Of a stretch of 64,000 nucleotides of DNA, positions 8,232 through 41,234 are shown piece by piece; positions within the stretch are counted from its first letter, which is position 1; the number at the start of each line of letters is the position of its first letter. The translations under genes and the position numbers were made by a program. Below the pieces are notes generated by a model that worked only from the letters and a program-made list of their open reading frames with translations, was not told the DNA's origin and did not search any database. This stretch comes from Salinimonas profundi (GTDB lineage: Bacteria; Pseudomonadota; Gammaproteobacteria; Enterobacterales; Alteromonadaceae): assembly GCF_014750655.1 (NCBI RefSeq), contig NZ_JABBXD010000001.1, forward strand, positions 605,102 through 669,101. The letters are read 5' to 3'.

Positions 8232-8731
8232 AAGCCGTAGGTGCTTGTTATTTATGAAAAAATTAAGAAAGCGAAATGATATAAAACAAAACTGTAAAAT
8301 AGTCAGACAGTACTATGACTGTTTTTATTACACCTTTATTAGTAATTTAAAGGTGTGCGTTTAACGGTGTCCGTTTACATTTCATCTGATTTCAAATGGT
8401 CATATCGATAGTTATTTTGGATCAGCATTTTGCTCGGATGATTCAATAACGCCCTACTTGGCTAGTTCCCCATGAATTTCCGCTCAGTGAGTTACATGGG
8501 CCATGTAGATCCATTTTGCAATGGTTTCGGACATGTAGATTGAAAATGAGAAACAGCGAGGAGTCTAACGAAATTTAAATTTTTTCGTGTAATTATCAAA
8601 GGCTGAATGACCGCATCTGGTAAACCTGCAACACCTATGTGGCATGCATTAATCTTCTTTACTGCACATTCACGTAAATCGCTTAACGAAAGAGGATTAC
8701 CCGACTGAACAAATATTTATTTACCGGCAAC
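8232..8731. other. Gene-free region upstream of the sigma-54 promoter, with short repeats
   Basis: No credible gene was found in either direction. It contains a palindrome ACATGG-G-CCATGT (8494-8506), an inverted repeat CCATT-TTGC-AATGG (8511-8524) and a 9-base direct repeat CATGTAGAT (8502-8510 and 8532-8540) spaced 30 bases apart, about three helical turns. At 270-310 bases from the promoter these could be enhancer sites for a sigma-54 activator. Confidence 0.4.
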
Positions 8732-34134: not shown

Positions 34135-35110
34135 ACAGGCACAGAGCTGGTTTGAAAGTACTTACCGGTCGTTATTAGGTACACCGCTGGCCCATTGGCT
34201 TGAGACGCTACCGCAACAGATGCGAGAGTTTGACCGACAAGGCAAGCATGGCGAGTTCGACAAATGGTGCAGGATGTTAGAAAAGCTACCGCAGACGGCC
34301 CCCTCCACCACGAACTTCAGTAATGCGGTCACAATTGGGCATGCAGAGGACATTGATACATATACCGCGAAACAAATTTCAGGCTTATTGAAACAATTCA
34401 TGCCATGGCGTAAGGGCCCCTATGCACTTCATGGGATTGATATCGACACCGAATGGCGTTCTGACTTTAAGTGGAACAGGGTCGCCCCCCATATCAGTGA
34501 TTTACGTGACAGAGTAGTGTTAGACGTAGGCTGCGGAAGCGGCTACCACATGTGGCGAATGCTTGGTGCCGGTGCACGTGGTGTTTATGGCATAGACCCT
34601 ACTCAGTTGTTTATGATTCAGTTTCAGGCCATCAAGCACTTCGCGCCAGATAACAACATTCACTTTTTGCCACTGGGCATAGAACAAATGCAGCCGCTAA
34701 ACGCGTTTGACACGGTCTTTTCGATGGGTGTGTTATATCACCGTAAGGATCCTATCGCCTTTCTGGAGCAACTTAAGCATCAGTTAAGACGTGGTGGTGA
34801 GCTTATTCTGGAAACGCTGGTTGTCGATGGTGATGAAAATACCGTATTAATGCCGGGAGAGCGTTATGCCCAAATGCGAAACGTGTGGTTTTTGCCCAGC
34901 GTTGACGCATTAAAGAAATGGCTGGAGCGGCTCGGTTTTGTTGATATTACTCTGGCTGACATTAATCACACAACACTTGAAGAGCAACGTGCTACAGAAT
35001 GGATGACCGGCCAGTCCTTGCAAGATTTTCTAAACCCTGAAGATCTTTCACTGACGGTCGAGGGCTACCCCGCCCCCCAGCGTGCTGTGCTTATCGCAAC
35101 CCGTAAGTAA
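34127..35110 (+). CDS. cmoB: tRNA U34 carboxymethyltransferase CmoB
   Basis: 327 residues. It transfers the carboxymethyl group of carboxy-SAM to 5-hydroxyuridine-34. The SAM-binding VLDVGCGSGYHMWRM and the conserved HGIDIDTEWRSDFKW segment are clear. The ATG at 34127 has AGGAA about 8 bases upstream and overlaps the cmoA stop. An in-frame start 30 bases earlier lies within cmoA and is unlikely. Confidence 0.97.
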   Translation: MNKQAQSWFESTYRSLLGTPLAHWLETLPQQMREFDRQGKHGEFDKWCRMLEKLPQTAPSTTNFSNAVTIGHAEDIDTYTAKQISGLLKQFMPWRKGPYALHGIDIDTEWRSDFKWNRVAPHISDLRDRVVLDVGCGSGYHMWRMLGAGARGVYGIDPTQLFMIQFQAIKHFAPDNNIHFLPLGIEQMQPLNAFDTVFSMGVLYHRKDPIAFLEQLKHQLRRGGELILETLVVDGDENTVLMPGERYAQMRNVWFLPSVDALKKWLERLGFVDITLADINHTTLEEQRATEWMTGQSLQDFLNPEDLSLTVEGYPAPQRAVLIATRK

Positions 35111-35137
35111 CTGCCATACGTCCAGTTTTGTGTCTCT

Positions 35138-35199
35138 TGGCACAATAGTTGTTACCTGTTTTGCTATTATTAATGTGCACAATGCACCAAGACAGGTAA
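35138..35199 (+). promoter_or_regulatory. Nested inverted repeats in front of the glucosylglycerate operon
   Basis: TTACCTGT (35152-35159) is the exact complement of ACAGGTAA (35192-35199). Within the loop, GTGCA-CAA-TGCAC (35175-35187) forms a second palindrome. The right arm contains the AGG of the ribosome-binding site for the first gene, so a stem in the mRNA could hide it. TGGCAC-AATAG-TTGTT (35138-35153) resembles a sigma-54 site, but it has GT where GC is required. Roles are inferred. Confidence 0.35.
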
Positions 35200-35203
35200 T
35201 GAC

Positions 35204-36082
35204 ATGGATATTGCCCCCTTTATCGCAGCGCATCAGTTACCCGACAATTACGCAGATGTTGCACAAAATTGGTTCAATCCACTGGCTGAAGAGATCGCTA
35301 TGCTCCAGCATAGTGCAGATATGCCAGTATTTGTGGGCGTGAATGGGAGTCAGGGTTCCGGCAAATCAACCCTTTGTGACTATATTGCGTTCTATCTCAA
35401 AAATACCCGTTCGCTCAACGTCGTCGTGCTCTCTGTTGATGATTTTTATCTGTCCAGAGAGCAGCGCTTTAAACTTGCTGAAAAAGTCCATCCTTTATTA
35501 ACGACCCGCGGTGTACCGGGCACGCACGATACCCAATTGGCCCAGGCAACGTTATGGGCGTTGAAAAATAACCAGCATGTCGCACTGCCACGGTTTGATA
35601 AGGCCACTGACGATCCAAAACCAGAATCTGACTGGCCTGTGATCAATAAACCGGTAGACATCGTTCTTATTGAGGGCTGGTGTTGGGGTGTGCCTGCGCA
35701 GGCTGACAGCGCACTTACTGAACCGGTGAATGCGCTGGAGCGCGGCGAAGATCCTGAAGGAATTTGGCGCCGGTTCGTCAATACGCAGCTTGCAGGTACC
35801 TATCAACAGCTTTTTGAGCAAATGGATTATTGGGTGATGTTAAAAGCCCCTTCCTTTGAACATGTCTACCGATGGCGCTGCGAGCAGGAACACAAATTAG
35901 CAGCACGCCAGCAACCTGGCGAAGTCAGCAATGTGATGAGTGATGACCAGATTGCCCGGTTTATCCAACATTATCAACGCCTCACTGAACACGCACTCAG
36001 CACTCTGCCTGGTCAGTGCGACAAAGTCTTCGAACTAGATGGCGACAGAAAAATAACGAACGTACTTAAAGGTAACCGATGA
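35204..36082 (+). CDS. P-loop glycerate kinase-like protein (GLYK type)
   Basis: 292 residues. It has a Walker A loop GSQGSGKSTLCDYI near residues 48-61, then VLSVDDFYLS, the TTRGVPGTHD segment and a Lys/Arg-rich lid (HVYRWRCEQEHKLAARQ). This pattern fits the plant/fungal-type D-glycerate 3-kinase and E. coli YggC-like family. In this operon it would phosphorylate the glycerate released by the downstream phosphorylase to 3-phosphoglycerate, the acceptor of the synthase. The stop overlaps the phosphatase ATG (ATGA). The substrate is inferred from context. Confidence 0.82.
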   Translation: MDIAPFIAAHQLPDNYADVAQNWFNPLAEEIAMLQHSADMPVFVGVNGSQGSGKSTLCDYIAFYLKNTRSLNVVVLSVDDFYLSREQRFKLAEKVHPLLTTRGVPGTHDTQLAQATLWALKNNQHVALPRFDKATDDPKPESDWPVINKPVDIVLIEGWCWGVPAQADSALTEPVNALERGEDPEGIWRRFVNTQLAGTYQQLFEQMDYWVMLKAPSFEHVYRWRCEQEHKLAARQQPGEVSNVMSDDQIARFIQHYQRLTEHALSTLPGQCDKVFELDGDRKITNVLKGNR

Positions 36083-36903
36083 GTTCTAAGGACACACTAG
36101 TATTCACCGACATGGATGGCACCCTGTTGGACCATCATACATACAGTTTTGATGCGGCCAGACCCGCGTTGACGGCACTCAAGGAAAAAAATATTCCGGT
36201 TATCCCCTGTACCAGTAAAACCTACGCTGAAATGGTTGAGCTGCGAAATTACATCGGACTGACTGGTCCGTTCATTGTTGAAAATGGGGCAGCGGCGTTT
36301 GTTCCTCATGGCGTACTTAGTCAGAAGCCGGTCGGCGCAATTTGGCAGGATGGCTTCTGGTGCCAGTCGTTTACCTCGCCTAAAGCGCACTGGCTCAAGC
36401 TGCTTGAAATGATTAAGCCTGAGTTTGACGGTGAGTTTACGCACTTTAGCGAAATGAGTATCGATGCCATTGTTCAGGCGACCGGACTTGATGAAGCGTC
36501 TGCCGCTCGTGCTGCTCAGCGACAGTATGGCGAGCCGGTCATGTGGCTGGGTGACGAAAAAAGAAAAGCAGCGTTTTTAAGCGCTGTAAAAGCACGGGGC
36601 GCACAACCGCTGGAAGGTGGTCGTTTTATTCACGTTTCCGGTGATTGTGATAAAGGTGCCGCTTTGCGCTGGCTCGTCCAGGCGTTTAGTCGTCAAAGTG
36701 AGGCAGCACCGCGCGCTATTGCATTAGGCGATGGAAAAAATGACATTGCGATGCTAGAAGCAGCGGATATTGCAGTGATTATTAAATCACCCAATCATCC
36801 GCCCCCTGAGGTTAAAAAAGAAAAAGCGCTTTACACCAGTACCCTACCCGGTCCAGAAGGCTGGACAGAAATGCTTACTAAATTGCTTTCATTAAAAAAT
36901 TAG
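36079..36903 (+). CDS. Glucosyl-3-phosphoglycerate phosphatase (HAD, MpgP/YedP family)
   Basis: 274 residues, HAD Cof-type. Motif I is FTDMDGTLLDHHTY at residues about 9-22, motif II is in PCTSKT, and motif IV is ALGDGKNDIAMLEAAD. The IVENGAA segment is typical of the mannosyl-3-phosphoglycerate phosphatase family. Placed between the kinase and the synthase, it most likely dephosphorylates glucosyl-3-phosphoglycerate to glucosylglycerate; mannosyl specificity is possible but less likely because the synthase is GT81-like. Confidence 0.87.
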   Translation: MSSKDTLVFTDMDGTLLDHHTYSFDAARPALTALKEKNIPVIPCTSKTYAEMVELRNYIGLTGPFIVENGAAAFVPHGVLSQKPVGAIWQDGFWCQSFTSPKAHWLKLLEMIKPEFDGEFTHFSEMSIDAIVQATGLDEASAARAAQRQYGEPVMWLGDEKRKAAFLSAVKARGAQPLEGGRFIHVSGDCDKGAALRWLVQAFSRQSEAAPRAIALGDGKNDIAMLEAADIAVIIKSPNHPPPEVKKEKALYTSTLPGPEGWTEMLTKLLSLKN

Positions 36904-36911
36904 GAGGTACC

Positions 36912-38135
36912 ATGGCCGATTTTTATCAAAACGGTGTGGTGACAACATTACATAACCTGGCTAATCGTCCCACGGAAGATCTTGAAGCTGAGTTATTACG
37001 CTTTTCACAAAAGCGCCCTATGGCCCTTATTCTGCCATCTTTGTATTCCGAACTTGAAGGCAAAGCGCTACCCAATATTCTTGACGAACTGACCAATGTT
37101 CCCTATTTGTCGGAAATTGTCATCGGTCTGGACCGGGCAGATAAAGCCCAGTACCAGCATGCGCTGAAGTTCTTTGGCCGACTGCCTCAGCACCACCGGG
37201 TCTTGTGGAACGATGGCCCGCGCCTCAAAGCAATTGATGAAGAACTGTTAGAGCTTGGTCTGGCCCCTAAGGAGCTGGGAAAAGGAAGAAATGTCTGGTA
37301 TTGCATGGGGTATATTCTTGCCTCCAACCGGGCTGAATCGGTAGCACTTCATGATTGTGATATCGTCACGTATAACCGGGACTTACTGGCCAGACTTATC
37401 TATCCGGTTGCCAACCCGATGTTCAACTATGAATTTTGCAAGGGTTATTATGCCCGGGTGGCCGATGGCAAGATCAATGGACGTGTGTCTCGCCTGTTAG
37501 TCACGCCATTGCTGCGTGCTTTGAAGCGTACGTTAGGTGATCATGAATATCTTGAATTCATGGATAGCTTTCGTTACCCGCTTGCCGGCGAGTTCTCTTT
37601 CAGACGCGACGTGTTGAATGATATTCGAATTCCAAGTGACTGGGGCCTGGAAATCGGCGTGCTATCTGAAATGCATCGAAATTATTCTCACAACCGCCTC
37701 TGCCAGGCCGATATCGCTGAAACCTATGATCACAAGCATCAGGATCTATCGTTAAATAACGATCAGGGTGGCTTGTCTAAAATGTCTATCGATATCACCA
37801 AAGCGGTATTCCGTAAGCTGGCCACACAAGGGTTTACATTTAGTAACGAGATGTTTCGTTCAATAAAGGCTACGTACTACCGGATTGCGCTGGATTTTGT
37901 CGAAACCTATCATAATGACGCCATCATGAACGGTCTGACTCTGGATATTCACCGGGAAGAAAAAGCCGTCGAAATGTTCGCAAGTAACATTATGAAAGCA
38001 GGCCAAAGCTTTCTGGAAAGTCCGATGGAAACGCCTTTTATACCTAGCTGGAACAGGGTTACCAGCGCGGTGCCGGATATTTTAGACCGACTGTTAGAAG
38101 CAGTGGAAGCAGATACGTCCGAATTACTGGGGTAG
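36912..38135 (+). CDS. Glucosyl-3-phosphoglycerate synthase (GT81)
   Basis: 407 residues. A retaining GT-A glycosyltransferase that joins glucose from an NDP-glucose donor to 3-phosphoglycerate. It shows the N-terminal ALILPSLYSELEGKALPNIL, a metal-binding DCD in ALHDCDIVTY and the GKGRNVWYCMGYILA stretch characteristic of bacterial GpgS. AGGAGG overlapping the phosphatase stop gives a strong start at the ATG. Only 3 bases separate it from the phosphorylase gene. Confidence 0.9.
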   Translation: MADFYQNGVVTTLHNLANRPTEDLEAELLRFSQKRPMALILPSLYSELEGKALPNILDELTNVPYLSEIVIGLDRADKAQYQHALKFFGRLPQHHRVLWNDGPRLKAIDEELLELGLAPKELGKGRNVWYCMGYILASNRAESVALHDCDIVTYNRDLLARLIYPVANPMFNYEFCKGYYARVADGKINGRVSRLLVTPLLRALKRTLGDHEYLEFMDSFRYPLAGEFSFRRDVLNDIRIPSDWGLEIGVLSEMHRNYSHNRLCQADIAETYDHKHQDLSLNNDQGGLSKMSIDITKAVFRKLATQGFTFSNEMFRSIKATYYRIALDFVETYHNDAIMNGLTLDIHREEKAVEMFASNIMKAGQSFLESPMETPFIPSWNRVTSAVPDILDRLLEAVEADTSELLG

Positions 38136-38138
38136 CCC

Positions 38139-39899
38139 ATGACAGCTAATCTGAAAGCATTACACGAAAAAGTTTCGCATCATCTTCAGGCGATTTACGC
38201 TGATGTGGTGCTGGACCGGCCGGTTGGTGAGCTGGCCACTGCACTTATGCAAACAATGCGCATTGATACAGATGATGACATTACGGCGCCGCAGTCTCAC
38301 TGTAATTACTGGGATGAGGGCGATGTAGTAATGATCACTTATGGTGACAGTATTACCGACGGCCATGAAAAGCCGTTGTCCACGCTGCATCGCTTTTTAA
38401 ACACATATTGTGTTAATACCATCAATAATGTGCATATTTTGCCATTTTTTCCATACAGCTCAGATGACGGATTTTCAGTTATCGATTATTCCAGTGTCAA
38501 TGAGTCCCTGGGGGAATGGGAGGACATCACCAGTCTGGCCGAAGAATACGGGCTGATGTTCGATTTGGTGGTCAATCATTGCTCTTCTCGCAGTGCCTGG
38601 TTCGAAAACTTCATCAAGGGCGAAGGTGTTGGCAGTGACTTTTTCTATACAGCCAGTCCGGATGATGATTTGTCCATGGTAACCCGGCCACGAGTCTCCC
38701 CTTTATTGCGTGAAACCCAAACCAGCGAAGGGACAAAGTATGTCTGGTGTACGTTTAGTCATGACCAGGTCGATTTTGATTTTCGTAATCCCAAAGTGTT
38801 ACTCGCATTTATGGAGATAATTCGTCTGTACATCGACAAAGGTGCGAAGATTTTCAGAATGGATGCGGTCGCTTTTTTATGGAAAATTGTCGGCACAACC
38901 TGCATCAACCTGGAACAGACGCACGAAATCATACGCCTGATGCGCACGCTCATTGAGCATGTCGACCCGCGAATTATCATCATCACTGAAACTAACATAC
39001 CGAACCGGGAGAACCTTACCTATTTTGGTAATGCCAATGAAGCGCACGCAATCTATAACTTTTCTCTGCCTCCTTTATTGGTCAATACGCTGGTCACTGG
39101 CGACTGCCGTTACCTGAAAAGCTGGATGATGAGTATGCCACCCGCGCAAAGCGGTACGACTTACTTTAACTTTATTGCTTCGCATGATGGTATCGGTCTG
39201 CGTCCGGCAGAAGGATTGCTGGCAGATGAAGAGATTTCATCACTGGTGCATGCCATGCAACATTTTGGCGGCAAAGTTTCCTGGCGCGCTTCAGCACACG
39301 GCCAGCAAAAGCCATACGAAATTAACATCACCCTGTTTGATGCGTTACAGGGGACCATTGCAGGACCTGACAGGTGGCAGGTAGACAGATTTATTTGTGC
39401 TCATGCGATTATGCTGGCTATGGAGGGCATTCCGGGAATTTATATTCACAGCTTGCTTGGCACATCAAACGATTATGAAAAGGTTGCCAATACAGGGCAG
39501 AATCGTTCAATCAATCGCAAGCGCTGGGATCTTTCTGAATTGGAAGCACTGCTTGACTCACCCTTTTCACAGCACCATAAGGTACTGACGCGACTGTCAC
39601 AGCTTATACGTATCCGAAAAGTCCAACCGGCCTTTCATCCCAATGCAACGCAGTTTACTTTGCAATTAGGCAATCAGGTATTTGGCTTCTGGCGACAAAG
39701 CCTCGACCGTCAGCAGAGCCTGTTCAGTATCAGCAATATCAGTGATAAAGAGCAGTCTGTCCTGCTTTCTGATATCAATCTGTTCGGTACCGATCACTGG
39801 ATGGATCTTATTACCAGAGAGCCCATCGATAACGATGAAAATTACCTGCAGTTAAAACCCTATCAAACTGTTTGGATAAGTAACCGCGATCCTTCCTGA
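38139..39899 (+). CDS. GH13_18 glucosylglycerate phosphorylase-like enzyme
   Basis: 586 residues, sucrose-phosphorylase-like. The nucleophile Asp is in [11 protein letters not shown] and the acid/base Glu in [21 protein letters not shown] carries the third acidic-site region. [10 protein letters not shown] and TETN are patterns of glucosylglycerate phosphorylases (E. coli YcjM group), unlike the sucrose enzyme. The reaction would be glucosylglycerate plus phosphate to glucose-1-phosphate plus glycerate. Its place with the synthase and phosphatase genes supports this and argues against sucrose. Confidence 0.87.
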
Positions 39900-39904
39900 C
39901 TATT

Positions 39905-39928
39905 CAGGCGCTCCGGCGCCTGATTTTT
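39905..39928 (+). terminator. Rho-independent terminator ending the glucosylglycerate operon
   Basis: CAGGCGC-TCCG-GCGCCTG followed by ATTTTT, five bases after the phosphorylase stop. Confidence 0.85.
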
Positions 39929-40013
39929 CTTTGATATCAACTGCAAAGCGGTAGCCTCACTGCCGCTTTTCATGGATAATCCCGTTTTTATCGTGATACC
40001 AAGGAGCGTATTT

Positions 40014-41234
40014 ATGGCCCCACCTGTCTGGCTTTCTCTGGACGATGCCTTAAATCACTTGCGCTCAGCTGCGCCCCGCCCCACCGCTACAATGCTATGT
40101 AATACAGAAGCTGCCCTCGGGCGGGTTGTCAGTATAGACATTGTCGCTCCCTGCAACGTGCCTCCGCTCGCGGTATCAGCAATGGATGGGTTCGCGATTT
40201 GTCTGGATAACCTCACAAGCGAAATAGCATTGCCTGTTACCCAGACCATTTTGGCGGGTCAGGATATTTCGACCATACAACTTGGTAAAGGTGAAGCTGC
40301 CAGAATTATGACCGGCGCAGGCATACCGTCAGGTGCAGATGCTGTGGTCATGCAGGAAAATACCACCTATGACGAAGATACCGTGACCGTAAATCAGATT
40401 CCGGTCCATGGTGAGAACATCCGGCCACAAGGCAATGATATTTGTCGCGATGATATTATTATTACCAGGGGCACCCGATTACAAGCCCGCCATCTGATGC
40501 TCCTGGCGTCTGTGGGCCAAACCACCTGTGAAGTTTATTCGCCCCTCAAAATCGGGTTGCTGGCGACCGGTGATGAAATTAAAGCACCAGGTACGACGCT
40601 GAATCCGGGCCAGATTTTCAATGCCAATAGTATTGGGATTGCAGGACTATTGGCACCACTTGGTGTTCAGGTGACTGACCTGGGCATTTGTCCGGACGAT
40701 GCGGATGCTTTGCAGCGCTGTCTGCAGGAGGCAGCTGAAAAATTTGATCTCATTATCAGTTCTGGCGGCGTGTCAGTTGGCGATGCGGATCACGTCAAGC
40801 CGGTCCTGGACAAACTGGGCCAGGTTGATTTCTGGAAGGTTGCCATAAAGCCCGGTAAACCCTTTGCATTTGGCACATTGGGTAAGAGTTTATTTTGTGG
40901 GCTGCCTGGCAATCCGGTATCAGCTTATGTCACCACTGAGCAATTGGTCATTCCCCTGATAGCGTCGATGCAGGGGCTTGCTTCAAGTCCCACACCTGTT
41001 ATCGGACTCGCTGCGCTTACTACCGATATCAAGCGTCAGCCTGGTCGACAGGAATTTATGCGCGCAACGCTTTGTGTACAGCCAGATGGTCAGTGGCAGG
41101 TCACGCCACTAGCAAAGCAAAGTTCAGGCGTGATGACCAGCGTCACCAAAGCGAATGCCTATATTGTCGTGCCCGCACATACAAAGCACCTGGCAACCGG
41201 CGAGCGCGTTCAGGTTCTTCCTTTTACCCGTTAA
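40014..41234 (+). CDS. moeA: Molybdopterin molybdenumtransferase MoeA
   Basis: 406 residues. It inserts molybdate into adenylylated molybdopterin. It shows PPLAVSAMDGFAI, RIMTGAGIPSGADAVVMQE, the MoCF-binding TGDEI, SSGGVSVGDADHVK and FCGLPGNPVSAYV. The ATG at 40014 has AAGGAG 7 bases upstream; a start at 39972 would add 14 residues without a site. The next genes include other molybdoenzyme accessory functions. Confidence 0.97.
   Translation: MAPPVWLSLDDALNHLRSAAPRPTATMLCNTEAALGRVVSIDIVAPCNVPPLAVSAMDGFAICLDNLTSEIALPVTQTILAGQDISTIQLGKGEAARIMTGAGIPSGADAVVMQENTTYDEDTVTVNQIPVHGENIRPQGNDICRDDIIITRGTRLQARHLMLLASVGQTTCEVYSPLKIGLLATGDEIKAPGTTLNPGQIFNANSIGIAGLLAPLGVQVTDLGICPDDADALQRCLQEAAEKFDLIISSGGVSVGDADHVKPVLDKLGQVDFWKVAIKPGKPFAFGTLGKSLFCGLPGNPVSAYVTTEQLVIPLIASMQGLASSPTPVIGLAALTTDIKRQPGRQEFMRATLCVQPDGQWQVTPLAKQSSGVMTSVTKANAYIVVPAHTKHLATGERVQVLPFTR

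Follow-up and report, generated by a model that had tools for sequence, protein, structure and literature searches.

Organization of the locus

The stretch of Salinimonas profundi DNA analysed here (the window, 64 kb in its whole length) carries four co-directional open reading frames (ORFs) on the forward strand at positions 35204–39899. They are predicted to encode the synthesis and recycling of glucosylglycerate (GGA), and are accompanied by a sigma54-type promoter element in front of the first ORF and a pair of predicted NtrC boxes within it (Table 1). The ORFs are spaced at −4, +8 and +3 nt, with an overlap of 4 bases between 35204–36082 and 36079–36903 followed by gaps of 8 bases (36903 to 36912) and 3 bases (38135 to 38139). 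A terminator-like hairpin starts 4 nt past the last stop codon of the operon. It heads the list of seven such hairpins in the region 35050–40050, where shuffled sequences gave a mean of 5.0, so the hairpin count itself is unremarkable. A preliminary description of this DNA had proposed a compact four-gene operon with one terminator, and the same-strand ORFs, their close spacing and the hairpin at 39904–39923 confirm this arrangement.

Table 1. Predicted genes and control elements of the GGA operon, in window coordinates
Feature	Position	Strand	Basis or remark
sigma54-type −24/−12 element TTGGCACAATAGTTGTT	35137..35153	+	Narrowly top 17-mer of window; core unchanged in all eight sequences aligned
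Predicted NtrC box 1, inside GLYK	35260..35276		+56 from ATG; centre about +105 from predicted start; 12 of 14 positions
Predicted NtrC box 2, inside GLYK	35301..35317		+97 from ATG; centre about +146 from predicted start; 12 of 14 positions
GLYK, plant-type (class III) D-glycerate 3-kinase, putative	35204..36082	+	PDB sequence matches; GSQGSGKST, DDFYLS and EGW in sequence
GpgP, HAD-IIB glucosyl-(mannosyl-)3-phosphoglycerate phosphatase, putative	36079..36903	+	NF001218 and TIGR01486 over cut-off; PDB MpgP family
GpgS, glucosyl-3-phosphoglycerate synthase (GT81 type), putative	36912..38135	+	NF040724 1.9e-111, below cut-off; invariant GKGRNVW, HDCDI
GGaP, GH13_18 glucosylglycerate phosphorylase, putative	38139..39899	+	TETN and loop-A Glu; PDB GH13_18 phosphorylases
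Intrinsic terminator-like hairpin with T tail	39904..39923	+	Terminator scan

Predicted enzymes of the cycle

Gene 1 is, by homology and motifs, a putative class III, plant-type D-glycerate 3-kinase, nearest to GLYK. Its best matches among PDB sequences were D-glycerate 3-kinases (9e-24 and 7e-23), with yeast 1odf, a homologue, in third place (2e-20); the match to PF00485, the P-loop kinase family of the PRK/uridine kinase group, was below cut-off (0.0006). The class of the kinase bears on its product, which is 3-phosphoglycerate for the Arabidopsis enzyme of the GLYK class and 2-phosphoglycerate for both E. coli glycerate kinases (PMC4378991). If gene 1 shares the product of the Arabidopsis enzyme, which is the substrate of GpgS, the loop would close directly. 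The S. profundi genome has one GLYK and no match to class I (PF02595) or class II (PF05161) glycerate kinases, which were found in 96 and 19, respectively, of 197 genomes sampled from the order. Gene 1 is thus the only glycerate kinase found among the three classes.

The putative phosphatase exceeded the cut-offs of NF001218 (384.7 bits, cut-off 362) and TIGR01486 (234.8 bits, cut-off 164.75), and its PDB matches belong to the MpgP family. The putative synthase aligned with NF040724 over nearly its full length (residues 3–404 of 407 on model positions 2–401 of 402), its DxD site HDCDI and the motif GKGRNVW were invariant in nine aligned sequences, and its PDB matches to GpgS and MpgS reached only about 2e-4. 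A structure prediction for this protein from nine sequences had a mean predicted local distance difference test score (pLDDT) of 62.8 and was not used.

The phosphorylase had its best PDB matches among sucrose and glucosylglycerol phosphorylases (GH13_18). Both published signatures of glucosylglycerate phosphorylases, a (T/S)ETN motif and a glutamate in loop A (PMC7178133), are present in the protein, the former as TETN. By pattern, TETN occurred in 111 of 113 loci and the loop-A glutamate in 110 of 113, the other three being outside the pattern used. A second GH13 match elsewhere in the S. profundi genome, with 29 % identity, was set aside.

NF001218 bears the name mannosyl-3-phosphoglycerate phosphatase, and one of the four PDB matches of the synthase is named MpgS (3f1y). 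Both would fit a pathway in which MpgS/MpgP-like enzymes make mannosylglycerate, against which stand the top model of the synthase, which is GpgS, and the adjoining phosphorylase with its GGaP signature, from a subfamily said to bind the glucosyl group strictly (PMC7178133). Mannosylglycerate is accordingly a very improbable product, and the phosphatase is putatively assigned a glucosyl rather than a mannosyl substrate on account of the neighbouring GpgS and GGaP.

Two routes to other solutes were also sought. No ectoine synthase was matched in the S. profundi genome, a result that does not establish absence since the control genomes gave none either, and no trehalose-6-phosphate synthase (PF00982) was found there, whereas five of 14 control genomes had a match over the cut-off.

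Conservation of the operon in relatives

A search of genomes for co-occurrence of the four families, suggested in the preliminary description, was run through the synthase. Among the best-scoring 80 named loci of at least 588, phosphatase, synthase and phosphorylase kept the same order and strand in all 80, and GLYK stood first in 55, as far as the sequence available for each locus reached. Conservation of the order in 80 of 80 loci indicates that the arrangement is not due to chance. The nearest named relative of the S. profundi synthase in this set was that of Salinimonas chungwhensis (95 %).

GpgS was present in 58 of the 197 genomes of the order sample, for which the cross-table with kinase classes was compiled by hand. 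Thirty of the 58 also had GLYK, located beside GpgS in 29; in the exception, G040, GpgS begins 737 nt from the contig start. The remaining 28 all had a class I glycerate kinase, which was found in none of the 30 genomes with both GLYK and GpgS and in none of the 38 GLYK genomes of the sample. Each GpgS genome of the sample therefore had either GLYK or a class I glycerate kinase; kinase type tracks family lines, so that the 58 genomes are not independent. A phosphorylase with at least 40 % identity was found in 56 of the 58, G018 having none and G126 a weak match only.

GLYK and GpgP were fused as one open frame in 12 of the 74 GLYK-bearing loci (L035, L047, L087, L115, L120, L125–L128, L145, L146 and L150). 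HAD motif I was recognized by pattern in seven of these and HAD motif IV in all 12. On the tree, the distribution of the fusion needs six changes, of which at least two are forced by well-supported branches. A 580 aa Pseudoalteromonas protein encoded just before GpgS and annotated as a HAD-IIB family hydrolase (QWV06805.1) is probably another such fusion. At L048 (G090:C1:1931557-1932767), GpgS was recovered as two adjoining matches (residues 1–59 and 60–404), reflecting a frameshift or an assembly error. A phosphorylase homologue (43–48 % identity) lay on the opposite strand near GpgP–GpgS in L054, L055, L066 and L067, and GLYK adjoined only in L054.

The arrangement also bears on the possibility that the route is mainly catabolic, degrading GGA imported from other organisms, with synthase and phosphatase mattering little. 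In Prochlorococcus NATL2A, a putative transporter gene belongs to the GGA operon or adjoins it (PMC11631117). The operon described here contains no transporter gene; its neighbours are cmoA and cmoB upstream, moeA downstream and a MATE-like efflux gene, the last named by eye. All 80 named loci moreover retain synthase and phosphatase, although it was through the synthase that these loci were found. A mainly catabolic role is consequently considered highly unlikely.

Homology, the signature motifs and the preserved gene order thus speak for the four enzyme families and the closed loop put forward in the preliminary description, while the functions themselves remain putative assignments from sequence.

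A sigma54-type promoter element

When the window was aligned with seven relatives over the sequence preceding gene 1, a block, TTGGCAY-N5-TTGT, proved invariant in all eight. The published sigma54 consensus is TGGCAC-N5-7-TTGCT (PMC12316311); the window reads TTGGCAC at 35137, so that the −24 half and the spacing match, and transcription is predicted to start near 35163. Scored with a weight matrix that was set by hand and not fitted to these loci, 35137–35153 reached 15.85 of 21.3 bits and ranked first, by a narrow margin, among all 17-mers on either strand of the 64-kb window. The runner-up was TTGGCATTATCTTTGCT at position 8232 on the reverse strand (15.79 bits). In regions upstream of other ORFs in related loci, the 95th percentile of this score was 9.1.

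The strict pattern TGGCAY-N5-YTG was found in 63 of 118 regions upstream of GGA operons (window included) and in one of 118 on the other strand, as compared with a mean of 0.17 and a maximum of 2 in 100 shuffles. These matches peaked 60–80 nt 5′ of the start codon. At the chosen threshold, 82 of 114 distinct loci (three duplicate rows having been removed, which remain in other locus counts) carried a sigma54-type element. A scan of 35050–40050 for sigma70 promoters gave four matches against 7.0 in shuffles, none of them before the first gene. The S. profundi genome has one match to the sigma54 DNA-binding domain.

Second, non-operon copies of GLYK in one genus (L153–L163) often had a sigma54-like element 129–158 nt upstream and no NtrC box scoring 11 or more.

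Predicted NtrC boxes in and upstream of the first gene

Inverted repeats were searched for de novo, with no motif supplied, in the 200 nt upstream of promoter-like sites. The two commonest dyads, TGCAC-N7-GTGCA and GCACC-N5-GGTGC, each occurred in seven of 85 loci; the commonest dyad in one shuffled set occurred in four. Combined, they equal the published NtrC box consensus, TGCACCAnnnTGGTGCA (PMC8743547). The dyads emerged before this consensus was looked up, and the same analysis also tried patterns chosen beforehand. Boxes were then scored as matches to the 14 fixed positions of TGCACCAnnnTGGTGCA.

Boxes of at least 12/14 were present within 400 nt upstream in 30 of 116 loci, against 0.06 in shuffles and 1.07 for other ORFs (scaled from 325). 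When the span was set at −400 to +250 nt and the threshold at 11/14, 90 of the 114 distinct loci had a box. The same span around other genes gave 7 of 120 for GpgS, 6 of 110 for GGaP, 0 of 23 for CmoB and 1 of 14 for MoeA, and a shorter span at GpgP, where GLYK comes first, gave 3 of 72.

The two boxes of the window are 41 nt apart and lie downstream of the predicted promoter. Within 400 nt upstream of that promoter the best site scored 9/14, leaving the in-gene boxes as the only enhancer candidates in the window. Boxes at +56 and +97 recur in relatives from Alteromonas, Glaciecola, Neiella and Halieaceae, and that at +97 also in Methylophaga; in loci where GpgP comes first, the box is often upstream of the start codon. 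Measured from the predicted transcription start, the centres of 80 of 109 boxes scoring at least 11 fell at −180 to −121 or +80 to +159. Pair spacing was similar in both settings, at 41 nt for in-gene pairs and 40 nt for three upstream pairs (L060, L062 and L135). Immediately before the start codon of the window, positions 35183–35199 (TGCACCAAGACAGGTAA) are near-identical in S. chungwhensis and resemble half an NtrC box entering the ribosome-binding region.

Across the S. profundi genome (4.07 Mb) there were 19 sites of at least 12/14, against six for a reversed control pattern, and boxes 1 and 2 were the sole pair within 100 nt among the 19. The single best box (13/14) lies just before an ntrB-like gene, and glnA is preceded by boxes of 12/14 and 10/14, with one of the 19 sites 165 nt before it (both genes named by eye). 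The boxes at L182 3433 and 5854, before glnA and the ntrB-like gene, form a positive control within the genome, in which ntrC was found over its curated cut-off.

Origin of the in-gene boxes

The boxes of the window are part of a coding region and fall where peptide patterns such as AQxWF and HQxxA are encoded, and GGA has been described as an osmolyte (PMC7178133). Both points would fit a real GGA operon that is mainly salt-responsive through an ordinary promoter and whose NtrC-like boxes are a coincidence of coding. By synonymous-codon shuffling, codon choice alone would indeed give a box in 12.6 of 75 loci on average, and in no more than 20 in any of 200 runs, but in-gene boxes were observed in 48. 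The window and two duplicated rows are counted among the 75. In the genus with two GLYK copies, a box of at least 11 was present in the operon copy in five of five genomes and in the other copy in none of the five. Across all GLYK copies outside the operon there was no such box in 16, although eight of the 16 retain the peptide HQKQAK; six have a site of 10/14, either away from the +56 and +97 positions or as much as three hundred nt upstream. In-gene and upstream boxes also avoided each other, with 44 of 73 loci having the former only, 12 the latter only, four both and 13 neither (Fisher P=2e-4).

A purely protein-level origin fails against the synonymous shuffles and the non-operon copies and was rejected. 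The shuffles, the box-less copies and the mutual avoidance of the two positions together indicate that the boxes do not reflect protein conservation alone. The same results, the many GpgP-first loci with a box upstream of the start codon and the lack of sigma70 matches before the first gene make the salt-responsive explanation very unlikely. Nitrogen, which the preliminary description had named beside salt as a possible trigger, has gained support at the sequence level from the sigma54-type element and the NtrC boxes.

Proposed nitrogen control of the GGA cycle

The operon probably encodes a closed GGA cycle under nitrogen control by NtrC and sigma54, with the enhancers inside coding sequence. 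Several observations weigh against this reading. The synthase scored 372.7 bits against NF040724, below the curated equivalog cut-off of 700, and 66.5 of 262 bits against PRK13915, again below the cut-off; for this reason the protein is called GpgS-like by resemblance and context. The phosphorylase scored 206.9 bits (4.3e-61) against TIGR03852, a model for sucrose-phosphorylase-like GH13 proteins with a cut-off of 334.4. Glycerate kinases also occur in genomes without GpgS (class I in 68 of 139, GLYK in eight) and so are not tied to GGA alone. The −12 half of the promoter element, TTGTT, has the right spacing but carries GT for the canonical GC of TTGC(A/T), and the relatives have CTGCT in Halieaceae and TTGAA in many others. 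Five of 368 regions upstream of other ORFs match the score of the window's element, 32 of 114 distinct loci have no sigma54-type element at the chosen threshold, and promoter scores are low in Methylophaga, Amphritea and Pseudoalteromonas. The sigma54-like elements before non-operon GLYK copies imply that elements of this type are not confined to GGA genes. Boxes of at least 11 are missing from 24 of the 114 loci, 29 of 109 boxes are scattered beyond the two distance bands, and the association between promoter and box presence is modest to weak (Fisher P=0.022). Finally, the loci are related, so that locus counts are not independent and are inflated.

Under the proposed nitrogen control, transcription would most likely start from the sigma54 promoter at 35137–35153. 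On nitrogen limitation, phosphorylated NtrC would bind both in-gene boxes and contact the sigma54 polymerase by looping of the DNA, thereby activating it. GpgS would then transfer the glucose of a nucleotide sugar onto 3-phosphoglycerate, and GpgP would strip the phosphate to give GGA. The cell might in this way swap glutamate for a nitrogen-free, negatively charged solute, both halves of which could be reclaimed later. GGaP would phosphorolyse GGA to glucose-1-phosphate and glycerate, and GLYK would phosphorylate the glycerate to 3-phosphoglycerate and close the loop, so that relief of the limitation would return glucose-1-phosphate and 3-phosphoglycerate. As opposing enzymes would be co-expressed, flux would have to be set by substrate levels or by enzyme control. 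We infer all activities, the direction of flux and the dependence on NtrC from sequence.

Relation to known systems

Gene neighbourhoods of glucosylglycerate phosphorylases were reportedly described by Franceus et al. in 2017. The enzyme set itself is already in print, both in PMC7178133 and in the Prochlorococcus operon (PMC11631117). In the former, GGaP genes are frequently accompanied by a gene for glycerate kinase, synthase or phosphatase, and the kinase, GpgS and GpgP partners, the TETN motif and the loop-A glutamate are as found here; unlike here, its passages on these neighbourhoods name no kinase class, fixed order or regulation. The Prochlorococcus NATL2A operon, like the present one, is described as making GGA and recycling it to glucose-1-phosphate and 3-phosphoglycerate (PMC11631117).

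What appears to be new is the regulation and the conserved enhancer pair within coding sequence. A limited literature search brought up no account of GGA genes being controlled by NtrC or sigma54, which does not establish its absence in print, and no named regulator of GGA genes in marine gammaproteobacteria.

Flagellar genes have sigma54 enhancers downstream of the promoter. Their placement is as proposed here, but they answer to other activators and not to nitrogen control. The enteric NtrC enhancers of the glnAp2 type similarly combine a sigma54-type promoter with a pair of boxes 100–150 bp away; they differ in a box spacing of 32 bp, against 41 bp here, and in that the present boxes are downstream of the start and inside the first gene. 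A coding-region site is also known from Caulobacter, where an NtrC chromatin immunoprecipitation sequencing (ChIP-seq) peak lies within cdzI, downstream of the operon promoter (PMC10274813). The authors of that study left a direct effect of NtrC open, and its available passages do not describe a conserved pair.

Links between GGA and nitrogen have been drawn in other groups, including the cyanobacteria, which are not known to have sigma54. Going by their titles, Behrends 2012 reportedly links glucosylglycerate to nitrogen stress in mycobacteria, and Klahn 2010 is said to tie it to nitrogen-poor seas in cyanobacteria. The mycobacterial link to nitrogen shortage is as proposed here but concerns a different phylum, in which the nitrogen response runs through GlnR (PMC3662644). 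Passages of PMC3870243 and PMC3662644 cite Behrends 2012 and hold no more on GGA and NtrC.

Biological implications

The DNA evidence proposes a concrete regulator of GGA genes, NtrC with sigma54, and an unusual enhancer placement. We consider it likely that the paired boxes form a nitrogen-starvation enhancer within coding sequence, conserved in marine gammaproteobacteria from several orders and shaping the N-terminal peptide of GLYK (AQxWF ... HQxGA), with the boxes lying upstream in other lineages; GGA synthesis and recycling would then belong to the Ntr regulon, and the solute would act as a nitrogen-free substitute for glutamate. The operon also suggests what class III glycerate kinases may do in bacteria, where their function was termed unclear in 2007 (PMC2063504). 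Alteromonas has been suggested to release glucosylglycerate to Prochlorococcus (PMC11631117), and the predicted operon and its control may bear on this suggested exchange.

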